Shown: positions 2,703 through 7,470 of the stretch, one piece after another
Numbering within the stretch: the stretch's first letter is position 1
Layout of the letters: every line of letters begins with the position of its first letter
Source: Hydnum rufescens UP504
Lineage: Eukaryota; Basidiomycota; Agaricomycetes; Cantharellales; Hydnaceae
Assembly: GCA_014904985.1 (NCBI GenBank)
Contig: MU128945.1
Span: forward strand, 124,001 to 188,000
Reading direction: 5' to 3'
Length of the DNA: 64,000 bases
Program-made: the position numbers and the translations under genes
Notes under the pieces: generated by a model
Seen by the model: only the letters and a program-made list of their open reading frames with translations
Told to the model about the DNA's origin: nothing
Database searches by the model: none

Positions 2703-3455
2703 AGCGATCAGCCGGCATCGGCCGGGGCATGCAGTTCCATCGGTCTCGCTAGCTCCTAGTTTTTCAATGTTAGTAGAAGGAACTACGGGAAGGAGAACAG
2801 TTCCTCTTTGGCGAGCTCAGATCAAATCTCATATATATCGTCCTTTTATCTTGATCTCACTTCGTCATGTGTATTCGATATGTCGGGCTCGACCCACCGC
2901 TGTTTTTAAATGTCCCGCCATCCGGATATGTTGGCAGGAGCCCCTGGATGGATCGTAGATACCCTCCAAGACAACAAATTGGCAGAAGGTTAGGATGTGA
3001 GTGAGGAAACATCATGATGTGGGCTTGACAAGAGGAAGACTGCCTTCAGCACTCCAAGGACCGCGTACGCTCCCCCAATTTTTTTTTGTAGACAATCCAC
3101 GGACCGCGAAGGGCTATGAATGAGACAACGCGACACTTCGAGGCAGCCGTAACATCCTACCAAAACTTGACCCTAACACAGCTGCTGATTCACAGTACCG
3201 ATCCTAACACGCAATGCTCCCACATGATTGAGAAACAGCTACATCTAGGCAATATACACCTCTTTCGTGTTGCCATGGTCTTCGGTCCTTTCAAGTTTCG
3301 GAACTTTTGAAAATGATGCCCCATGGTGACATCACTACATGCCTCTAACTTGTCGACTTTCATTCATATGAATGCATTCTTTGTCATCCTGCGCTCCCGA
3401 TGTATCGTAGTTAGTGAGAAAAAAAGGACTCAAGACTCGACTCACTTTAGTTCTC

Positions 3456-3599
3456 CTTAGACTCGTGACCAGTCTTCCTCAGCTTGCTGAGGGACTGGTA
3501 AAATGGGGTTTGCCGGCAGGTTGTGGTCGAAACTTATCCGAAGGACCAATCACATCATTCTTCCCACGACAATTAATCTTAGACCAGTTGCTTTTTGAA
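3456..3599 (+). repeat. left terminal inverted repeat
   Basis: This is the left arm of the inverted-repeat element. It contains a perfect internal palindrome, CCTCAGCTTGCTGAGG, at about 3478-3493. Its inner end (TTAATCTTAGACCAGTTGC, about 3572-3590) is followed by a degenerate direct copy at about 3606-3630 that lies outside the inverted repeat. Confidence 0.9.
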
Positions 3600-3659
3600 T
3601 GGCACTTAATCTTCGACCCAGTTGCTTTTTAAACGGCTGTTACGAATAGCCTATCTCTT

Positions 3660-4097
3660 TCCTCTGATGACGATGAAGAAAGTGAGATTCCAGACTGTGA
3701 GACAGATTCGGAAGACAAGGATACCTGCGATCCTGTACGGGTTTGTCCCCTGATTGGGTATCAGACGAGACTTATGATCGACAAGCTTCATTCACTGCCC
3801 CACTCTTGCCGAGAGCCTTCTTGGATGCTCTGTATATGATTCTTTTCGCTCTGATCACCTCCACATCATTCGAAAGGCAACTGAGCGTCCATGGACAAAG
3901 TCGAATCACAAGAAGATTGTTTGCACAGCGCAACTCGAGACGGTCATTGCCGTTGAGTGCGACGGTAAGAATGTCATTCATGAGGCAGCGACAGGTTCGG
4001 GCAAGACTATCACAATGGGCATCCTAATGCTCCTTCATCCCAAAACCATTTTTATCACTGTTTCACCTTTGAATGAGCTGCATTGTCTTGAGTGAGG
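3660..4097 (+). pseudogene. fragment of RecQ/DEAD-type SF2 helicase inside the TIR element
   Basis: One plus-strand frame through about 3928-4097 reads into GKNVIHEAATGSGKT, an SF2 helicase motif I (Walker A), followed by a motif Ia-like KTIFITVSPLNELH. It ends at a stop at about 4095. Upstream, 3660-3740 encodes an acidic stretch rich in Asp/Glu, but frame changes and stops separate it from the helicase motif. No motif II (DExH) or helicase C-terminal domain is present, so the gene is a fragment that cannot make an active enzyme. The homology resembles RecQ-like helicase genes that are numerous in Agaricomycete genomes. It lies wholly between the terminal repeats, so it probably moves with them. 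Confidence 0.7.
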
Positions 4098-4327
4098 ACT
4101 GCGTCTATAACCAGATTGAGCATGCAATGAATATTTGAGTAGACCAGCCATCAATGAGCAAGAGGAAAATACCAATAGTGTGGACATAGGTCCATGCCTC
4201 TCGGAAGCAGGTGCAATGTTTCGAGGCCTAGCTGGTAGCTTGGGCACAGGAGCTTTTGACCGAGGGGCCATCTTAATTGTACGGAGACAAGGGTCAATTT
4301 ATTGATTTAATTATGATTATTTTCCTG

Positions 4328-4471
4328 TTCAAAAAGCAACTGGTCTAAGGTTAATTGCCGTGGGAAGAATGATGTGATTGGTCCTTCGGATAAGTTTCGA
4401 CCACAACCTGCCGGCAAACCCCATTTTACCAGTCCCTCAGCAAGCTGAGGAAGACTGGTCACGAGTCTAAG
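4328..4471 (-). repeat. right terminal inverted repeat
   Basis: Reverse complement of 3456-3599 with two transitions, both near the inner end. It is directly followed by the TTCTC copy of the target-site duplication at 4472-4476, only about 90 bp upstream of the eIF6 start codon. Confidence 0.9.
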
Positions 4472-4568
4472 TTCTCCTCGCAGGCGTGACGAGAAACGGC
4501 TCTTGCCGGAGCTGCAACGAGTCTCAATCTAGTTCAAATTCACACACGACGAGGAAACCAGAGTTCAT

Positions 4569-5795
4569 ATGGCTACCCGTACGTGACCCTTTCCCCTCAT
4601 ACCATTCACCGCAGAACTTTGTGGGCGTTGTAATTCCCAGCCACGCCGATCACCTGCATGGTACCCTTCTGTGGCCACTTACCCACTATTTCTAGGCACC
4701 CAATTCGAAAATAGTAGCGACATTGGCGTATTTTCGAAACTGACAAACAGGTCTCTTAATGTCATTCTACTCAGGAGGCCGGTTATTGAAATCGAATTCT
4801 AGCTATTGTCTCGTTGCGGTTGGCGGCAGCACAAATTTCTACTCTGTTTTCGAGAGCGAACTCGGCGACATTATACCCATAGTACACACCACCATCGGTG
4901 GGACCCGTATTGTTGGCCGACTAACGGCAGGTAGTCGCTTCCCTCCAGAGATCGTTCTACGCGATCCTGACTCATCTCTCAAAGGGAACCGTCACGGGCT
5001 CCTAGTCCCATTCTCGACCACAGATCAAGAATTACAACATCTTCGCAATGCTCTTCCAGATTCTGTAGCCATACAACGCGTAGAAGAACGTCTTTCCGCC
5101 TTAGGAAACGTCATTGCGTGCAATGACTATGTAGCACTCGTCCATCCAGACGTCGATCGCGAAACAGAAGAAATCATTGCGGATGTATTGAAAGTAGAGG
5201 TGTTCAGGCAGACTGTCGCCGACAATGTCCTTGTGGGCAGCTACTGTGTGTTCACGAATCAAGGGGGTCTCGTACACCCCAAGACGAGTGTGCAAGATCA
5301 GGACGAGTTGAGTAGTTTGTTGCAGATCCCTCTGGTGGTCAGTCGGTCATTCACTGGGTGTTTGTATTTTTGTCATCCGTGGTGGGCTCATTCTTGGAAA
5401 TCGTAGGCAGGGACTGTAAATCGAGGATCAGATGTACTAGGGGCGGGACTCGTTGTGAATGACTGGTGCGCATTTACGGGACTGGAGACGACCGCAACGG
5501 AGGTCAGCGTCATCGAGGCCACATTCAGTACGTGCACCCTTGCTTCCATTTTCTCCCTGTTTTCTCTTTGGCTGGTATGCCCTTTCTTGCTGCGAGACCA
5601 TGTTCTTTTGGCATCCTGCTGGTTTTTTATCCCAATCTTGGTTCTTCATTTTGTTTTCTCTCCATTATACCGTCCCCAACTCGTCTATATGCCTCACAAT
5701 AATCTTCTCTCCTTGCATGTGCAGAACTTCAAGGGAACCAACAAAGCGCGATCATTGGCGAGATGCGAGATGCACTCATTGATAATTGGGCATGA
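4569..5795 (+). CDS. TIF6: eukaryotic translation initiation factor 6 (ribosome anti-association factor)
   Basis: eIF6 binds the 60S subunit, blocks premature joining to 40S and is needed for 60S biogenesis in the nucleolus. Six exons rebuild a full protein: 4569-4578, 4696-4750, 4803-4930, 4985-5337, 5407-5527 and 5725-5795. The product is exactly 245 aa, the usual family length. It starts [16 protein letters not shown] and contains the conserved [31 protein letters not shown] and [12 protein letters not shown] blocks. The first exon is only ten bases. The intron 4931-4984 is 54 nt, a multiple of three without a stop, so it reads through as an apparent 18-residue insertion unless spliced. 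No frameshift is seen. The promoter region is squeezed against the mobile element that ends at 4471. Confidence 0.96.
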
Positions 5796-6220: not shown

Positions 6221-7470
6221 ATGAACGAAGACAGATCTGCTCACCACCATACCACATCCTTTGCACCCTCCGATACATTGCTCCTTTCTGGAAGCAACTT
6301 TGAAAAGTTATCTACCACCGAACTTAATGAACACTTCGAAGGCTTTGACGGGCTTTTGCATATCGAACTTTCGAGTAACTCCAGTATGCGCATGGATTTT
6401 GCGAGGGGCGGACATTCATCTATCTCACCTGATTGTGATTCCAGAATATTCTTATCGACGAATGCCAAGACTCCTGACAGTAATATTTCGAACGCTGCAA
6501 CACTCTGTGCAAGCGTTCCATCGTCTTTATATACAGAAGCATAGACGTGAATCCAATGGTTTGCGCATCACTGGGATAGAGTTCAGTCCCTTCTCACAAC
6601 AAAGACACACACCCCCCGATTCCGTCTTTCGCCTGAACTTATCGGCGCCCATCATACTAGAGAAACCCCTGCTCCTTCTTTCCACCGTGGACGACGTGGG
6701 CCCTGTAGTTGTGAAGGAATATCTGTCACAATTCTTTGGATTCAAATTCCATGGGGGTGCGAACGGGATGTCGTTGATCCCATAAATGTCATGTCCTTAT
6801 TGTTGACTTCATACAGAGCCGCGGACCAGTCGTTCAGGGAGAACGACATTTCTCGTCGCATTTGACACCATAGAACACGCCATGTGGGCTCTTCACCACG
6901 TCCACTATTTTCCACCGATTCATAACACTCAACCCCTATTTCAAGCCATGCATTTCCACCTCGACATCAATCGTATGGAAGACGCACCCCGGGTGGCACC
7001 CTCTGAGGGCGAGATGCTTCAAGCAGAAGGAGATGAAATCGTGAAGAAGTTTGAATCTGTGAGCTTGCATTGGCCAAAAGAGAATGGGGCGCGGTGGATC
7101 CATGTTCGAGGTTTGCCGTCAATCGACCAAAGCATTCTCAAAGCATTTTCATACCCTGGGCTCCGCGATGTCAAGACTCATGAAGGTGAGCTGCGGCTGA
7201 AATTAGGACTATGTTACTGCCACTGATTCTTTTTTCTTTTTTCTTAGCTCTGCGTGCCATCCATGTTGCATACGAGAGCAAAACCGCAGCAGATCATGCA
7301 TTAAGAGAACTGCATCGCCAGAGGTATGGCGGGCCTTATGTTGGTTAGAGTCAGCGCTCAACGTTCTTATTTTCGCCAGGATATGGCCTGGAGGGCCCAT
7401 TATACATTCAGAGCGAAAAAACTCGCCATCGTGGCAAAGCTTCGCCCAATCTAATGATCCTAGGACATAG
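6221..7470 (+). CDS. protein with three degenerate RRM-like folds
   Basis: Five exons with matching splice phases (6221-6374, 6445-6756, 6817-7185, 7248-7323, 7380-7470) give 333 aa. Three stretches look like RNA-recognition-motif folds. The first starts at about residue 18 (TLLLSGSNFEKLSTTELNEHF, then LLTVIFRTLQHSVQAFHRL). The second starts near residue 125 (LLLLSTVDDVGPVVVKEYL, then TTFLVAFDTIEHAMWALHHV). The third starts near residue 235 (RWIHVRGLPSIDQSILKAF, then AIHVAYESKTAADHALREL). The beta-strand and helix pattern is clear, but the aromatic RNP1/RNP2 residues are mostly missing, so RNA binding is inferred, not shown. The gene is convergent with the RRM-like gene at 7502-8708, with only 31 bp between stop codons. 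The start ATG at 6221 is the first that keeps the domain frame; an upstream start is possible because the frame stays open to 5897. Confidence 0.65.

Follow-up and report, generated by a model that had tools for sequence, protein, structure and literature searches.

In a 64-kb window of the Hydnum rufescens UP504 genome (contig MU128945.1, positions 124,001 to 188,000), we identified a 1-kb DNA transposon copy next to the gene encoding TIF6 (eIF6). With a probability of roughly 0.83, we regard it as a non-autonomous element that arose by internal deletion from a two-gene DNA transposon of the AcademH type, one that moves by cut-and-paste. Positions without a contig prefix refer to the window, i.e. 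the whole stretch of 64,000 nucleotides that was analyzed, and C-numbers denote contigs of the assembly (63.2 Mb, 539 contigs). The copy occupies 3458-4469, and 99 bp lie between its right edge and the TIF6 start codon, on the upstream side of the gene (Table 1).

An inverted-repeat search returned two arms of 144 nt (3456-3599 and 4328-4471, 99% complementary), the length also given in a first-pass annotation made from the sequence alone. The arms and their two differences are real, but the true terminal inverted repeats (TIRs) are 142 bp long, with mismatches at 2/142 positions; two extra bases per side were included because the first two and last two bases of the target-site duplication are complementary by chance. 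This duplication comprises 9 bp, AGTTCTCCT, and the 5-bp TTCTC originally proposed is its middle part. Between the arms lies the fragment of a superfamily 2 (SF2) helicase gene already recognized in the first reading. It encodes an N-terminal piece with motif I (ATGSGKT) and matches PF00270 with 27.5 bits when 3805-4083 is scored alone (cut-off 26; 24.1 bits, just under it, when the whole frame was scanned). The fragment also shows 38% identity (E = 5e-9) to residues 25-115 of P0020, the deposited protein for the helicase of a related element on contig C17.

The origin of the copy was traced by comparison with an element of 7442 bp (7.4 kb) at C28:378695-386136, which has the same kind of ends and is flanked by the duplication TCAACACTG. 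In a BLASTN alignment, the window copy matched positions 1-626 of this element at 92.7% and positions 7054-7442 at 96.2%; the two matches overlap by 2 nt where they are joined. Judged from this alignment, the window copy consists of both ends of an element of the C28 type (not of the C28 element itself) around a deletion of ~6.4 kb. The deletion cut the helicase gene just past motif Ia and left both TIRs in place. Copies on C21 and C92 have the same deletion junction. The three copies differ pairwise at 23/996, 25/1010, and 26/997 positions (2.3-2.6%), and they are flanked by three different 9-bp duplications. Since a common junction is combined with separate duplications, the short form moved after the deletion had arisen, in agreement with the earlier proposal of a recently active TIR element. 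Read most simply, a single deletion event was followed by at least two moves of its product. The C405 copy represents a different deletion, between C28 positions 512 and 6976.

The element belongs to a multi-copy family, as had been anticipated. A DNA search of the assembly, in which 40 of its 44 candidates were scored and arms on either strand counted, listed 130 matching stretches. The 15 bases of the terminus, TAGACTCGTGACCAG, were found as an exact match at 82 places (38 forward and 44 reverse), compared with 0 for the reversed control; the number is thus not due to chance, and the arms are not unique in the genome. Target-site duplications were evaluated for 20 copies with both ends read, i.e. 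19 belonging to the window-element family plus the C17 element, a more distant one; of the 82 terminus occurrences, a minority was retrieved. An exact 9-bp duplication was found in 16 of the 20 copies, and the remainder agreed at 8/9 (C56), 7/9 (C9), 5/9 (C46), and 2/9 (C405) positions. As a control, 380 mis-paired left and right flanks were compared; the longest exact match was 3 bp, and one pair reached 7/9. No fixed sequence was found among the 16 exact duplications. Before counting, C116:40691-41700 (altered right end) was dropped, as it is probably a segmental duplicate, its flanks being the same as those of C116:20408-21447. Also uncounted, with one or both ends missing, unrecognised, or not facing each other, were C485, C4, C181, C256, C28:372669, C58, C103, C326, C41, C390, C172, and C3:533727, together with the trio C341, C13, and C3:63019, which look like one larger repeat because their flanks agree with each other. 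C56:91840-91944 is a copy of 105 bp with both termini and its 8/9 duplication, containing little beyond the two joined ends.

Two relatives are full length, namely the C28 element and an element of 5926 bp (5.9 kb) at C17:84612-90537, which represents a second family (TIRs of ~137 bp at 85%, duplication TGGGGAGAC). Each carries two convergent genes, one for a RecQ-like SF2 helicase and one for a protein with the domain DUF6589 (PF20231). In the C28 element, helicase pieces lie on one strand and DUF6589 on the other (two pieces, E = 2.5e-39 and 1.4e-34). The C17 element is the cleanest relative, since its DUF6589 match is free of stops; its helicase frame, in contrast, seems interrupted in a three-frame reading. 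The check suggested with the first-pass annotation was thereby run: several copies with different interiors were found, as was a full-length relative with transposase candidate and helicase, although the duplications measure 9 bp instead of 5. Its statement that there is no transposase holds for the window copy, but not for these relatives.

P0020 contains DEAD and Helicase_C domains above cut-off, and its best match among solved structures is WRN (E = 1.8e-7). Its best NCBIfam match is recQ_fam (E = 2.1e-13) at 49.9 bits, far under the curated cut-off of 219.8, and we therefore use only the label "RecQ-like SF2". A protein search with the helicase returned P0020 alone. Apart from the C28 and C17 elements, the helicase was found on contigs C485, C98, and C31, so that a P0020-related helicase and DUF6589 occur together on 5 of the 11 contigs with DUF6589. 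On all five, the two genes are convergent. They are separated by 457-889 bp in four contigs and by 8443 bp in C98, where the pair may lack common TIRs. With the P0020-type query, no helicase match was obtained on the remaining six (C427, C22, C45, C80, C247, and C213), which may represent helicase-free or more diverged lineages. Nine further contigs, including that of the window, had helicase matches without DUF6589. As the full-length relatives have the helicase as a gene of their own, the ancestor of the window copy encoded it, one of two possibilities raised at the outset; the other, capture of a host helicase, was ruled out on the same grounds.

Long TIRs and 9-bp duplications are typical of Mutator-like elements (MULEs), and the literature gives 4-10 bp for duplications of IS256/MuDR. 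Arm and duplication length of the window copy would therefore also fit a MULE with a captured helicase fragment, i.e. a Pack-MULE. Such elements differ, however, in having another transposase, and here the helicase belongs to the element itself. Six-frame Pfam scans (E 0.01), run on the C17 element and on 5.0 kb at the right of the C28 element, gave only DUF6589 and DEAD, the left 2.4 kb of the latter being scanned as chosen open reading frames only. In the C28 and C17 frames scanned, neither a nuclease domain nor a MULE transposase domain (PF10551) was present, DUF6589 being the sole transposase candidate. We consider a Pack-MULE origin very improbable.

DUF6589 is probably the transposase of the full-length elements, as indicated by predicted fold and conserved residues. 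The domain was matched 17 times in the assembly, on 11 contigs, and not once in 14 control genomes, the latter result saying little about fungi. For AlphaFold models of two DUF6589 proteins, from Coniophora and Mortierella, the top fold matches were DDE transposases, with Hermes, the P element, RAG1, an IS256-type enzyme, and Transib at the top. Among the best 50 matches listed, DDE transposases or RAG took the top 27 places for the Coniophora model and the top 37 for the Mortierella model. In an alignment of 17 rows, counting rows with letters, D285 (15/15), D446 (13/13), and E686 (10/10) are invariant. The combination of a transposase-like fold with invariant D, D, and E residues identifies DUF6589 as a candidate DDD/E transposase, by fold and residues only. 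A PDB search by sequence yielded nothing convincing; only the fold comparison gave matches. When the DUF6589 alignment was used for a further protein search, just two Coniophora proteins were added; both protein searches with this domain scored only candidates sharing most words. In the literature searched, DUF6589 was not mentioned by name, and a search for its accessions led to one unrelated paper. Compared with the transposases of hAT elements (Hermes) and the P element, sequence identity is ~10%. The C/DxxH motif is not conserved in DUF6589, in which one histidine is invariant (17/17).

AcademH is, reportedly since Kojima in 2020, a lineage of the Academ superfamily. According to passages of PMC10045372, its duplications measure 9 or 10 bp and those of AcademX 3 or 4 bp, a difference that seems tied to the encoded helicase or nuclease, respectively. 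A passage of PMC10799480 describes AcademH as low-copy elements in Basidiomycota, Ascomycota, and Mucoromycota. The elements of H. rufescens resemble these accounts in having a helicase together with a DDE transposase candidate, 9-bp duplications (exact in 16/20 copies), and a basidiomycete host; the RecQ-like SF2 helicase is present in the relatives and as a fragment in the window copy, which differs in retaining only this fragment and the ends. Our filing under AcademH is accordingly based on described features (helicase, duplication length, and host group). The first-pass annotation had pointed in the right direction by mentioning Academ; its suggestion that the element may define a new family gives way to the agreement with what the available passages report for AcademH. 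The non-autonomous state also recalls the putative non-autonomous Academ elements that PMC8290104, in the part available, reports as widespread in the genome of the mushroom Marasmius oreades. AcademX was ruled out by the 9-bp duplications and by the frames scanned, in which no nuclease domain was detected.

Alternatively, the elements could be DDE transposons of a lineage outside Academ, equipped with a RecQ-like helicase and convergent in their 9-bp duplication. The nearest solved structures by fold are of the hAT, P, RAG, and IS256 type, and the likeness to AcademH is one of description, in a literature where the name DUF6589 was not found. Yet a helicase, a 9-bp duplication, and a fungal host are precisely the combination reported for AcademH in the passages cited above, and we judge a separate lineage unlikely. 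A related proposal would make DUF6589 a non-Academ DDE branch of its own, with a fold near hAT/P and RAG/Transib and a RecQ-like helicase, and would derive the short window element from a superfamily not yet described; this, too, appears improbable.

Helitrons have neither TIRs nor a target-site duplication, and were ruled out by the 142-bp TIRs and the 9-bp duplication. KolobokH, a fungal Kolobok with a RecQ helicase, would explain the helicase and the host group. Moreover, one red-algal Kolobok carries a RecQ helicase on the complementary strand, as stated in a passage of PMC9587614, and for this reason the convergent opposite-strand layout is a weak distinguishing feature. The same source gives TTAA as the Kolobok duplication, whereas 9 bp of varied sequence were found here in 16/20 copies. 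A Kolobok origin is thus hardly credible, and AcademH is the best filing.

For an AcademH-type element, the following mechanism can be proposed. In the full-length form, the genes for DUF6589, the putative DDE transposase, and for the RecQ-like SF2 helicase face each other between TIRs of ~140 bp. The 1-kb form has lost ~6.4 kb that separated the first part of the helicase gene from the far end, with both TIRs kept. Transposase supplied in trans would bind and cut at the TIRs of the short form, which would then insert at a 9-bp stagger, and gap repair would produce the 9-bp duplication. The helicase presumably opens or processes the ends, or remodels the complex. Some copies may still be active.

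The window copy itself is a routine non-autonomous transposon copy. In mushrooms and Mortierella, DUF6589 proteins carry the annotation "unknown function"; they can be given the label of probable transposases, which would take them out of host-gene counts. In this genome, long copies exist side by side with broken and shortened ones, flanked by clean 9-bp duplications, which makes it a practical system for asking why a transposase would need its own helicase. Finally, the copy near TIF6 represents a natural insertion into a promoter region, and its effect could be measured.

Table 1. Features of the transposon copy and its surroundings (window positions)
Feature	Position	Strand	Basis
Target-site duplication, left copy, AGTTCTCCT	3449..3457		Exact 9-bp identity with right copy
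Left TIR, starts TAGACTCGTGACCAG	3458..3599	+	2/142 positions differ from right arm; terminus 82 times in assembly
RecQ-like SF2 helicase gene fragment (motif I ATGSGKT, motif Ia region)	3805..4083	+	Open frame, ends at deletion junction; PF00270 and P0020 matches
Deletion junction	4081..4082		Element positions 624-625 join C28-type 626 and 7054, 2-nt overlap; BLASTN against C28:378695-386136
Right TIR	4328..4469	-	Inverted-repeat search and comparison with left arm
Target-site duplication, right copy, AGTTCTCCT	4470..4478		Exact 9-bp identity with left copy
TIF6/eIF6, 5′ part (outside element)	4569..5406	+	Start codon 4569 and short first exon read by eye, then frame 4759-5406

The neighboring gene was identified by a Pfam match to PF01912 (eIF-6, E = 8.6e-58) on its main frame. 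An Rfam scan of 3200-4600 gave no match. On the left, 3296-3452 belongs to a short interspersed repeat that matches 26 further places in the assembly (68-89% identity), most of which cover 3296-3442 or part thereof. An empty site was sought in the same assembly. Since the right flank matched itself only and the left flank otherwise matched only this repeat, ending before the insertion point and at most 4 bases into the left duplication copy, no empty allele was seen there.

The ratio of observed to expected CpG was 0.68 for the window copy, 0.42 for the C28 element, and 0.62 for the C17 element, compared with 0.91 for the 64-kb window. This depletion hints at methylation-linked decay of repeats or decay resembling repeat-induced point mutation (RIP). 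It is what would be expected if CpG sites in repeats mutate faster, and the copies may in reality be of lower age than their raw differences imply.
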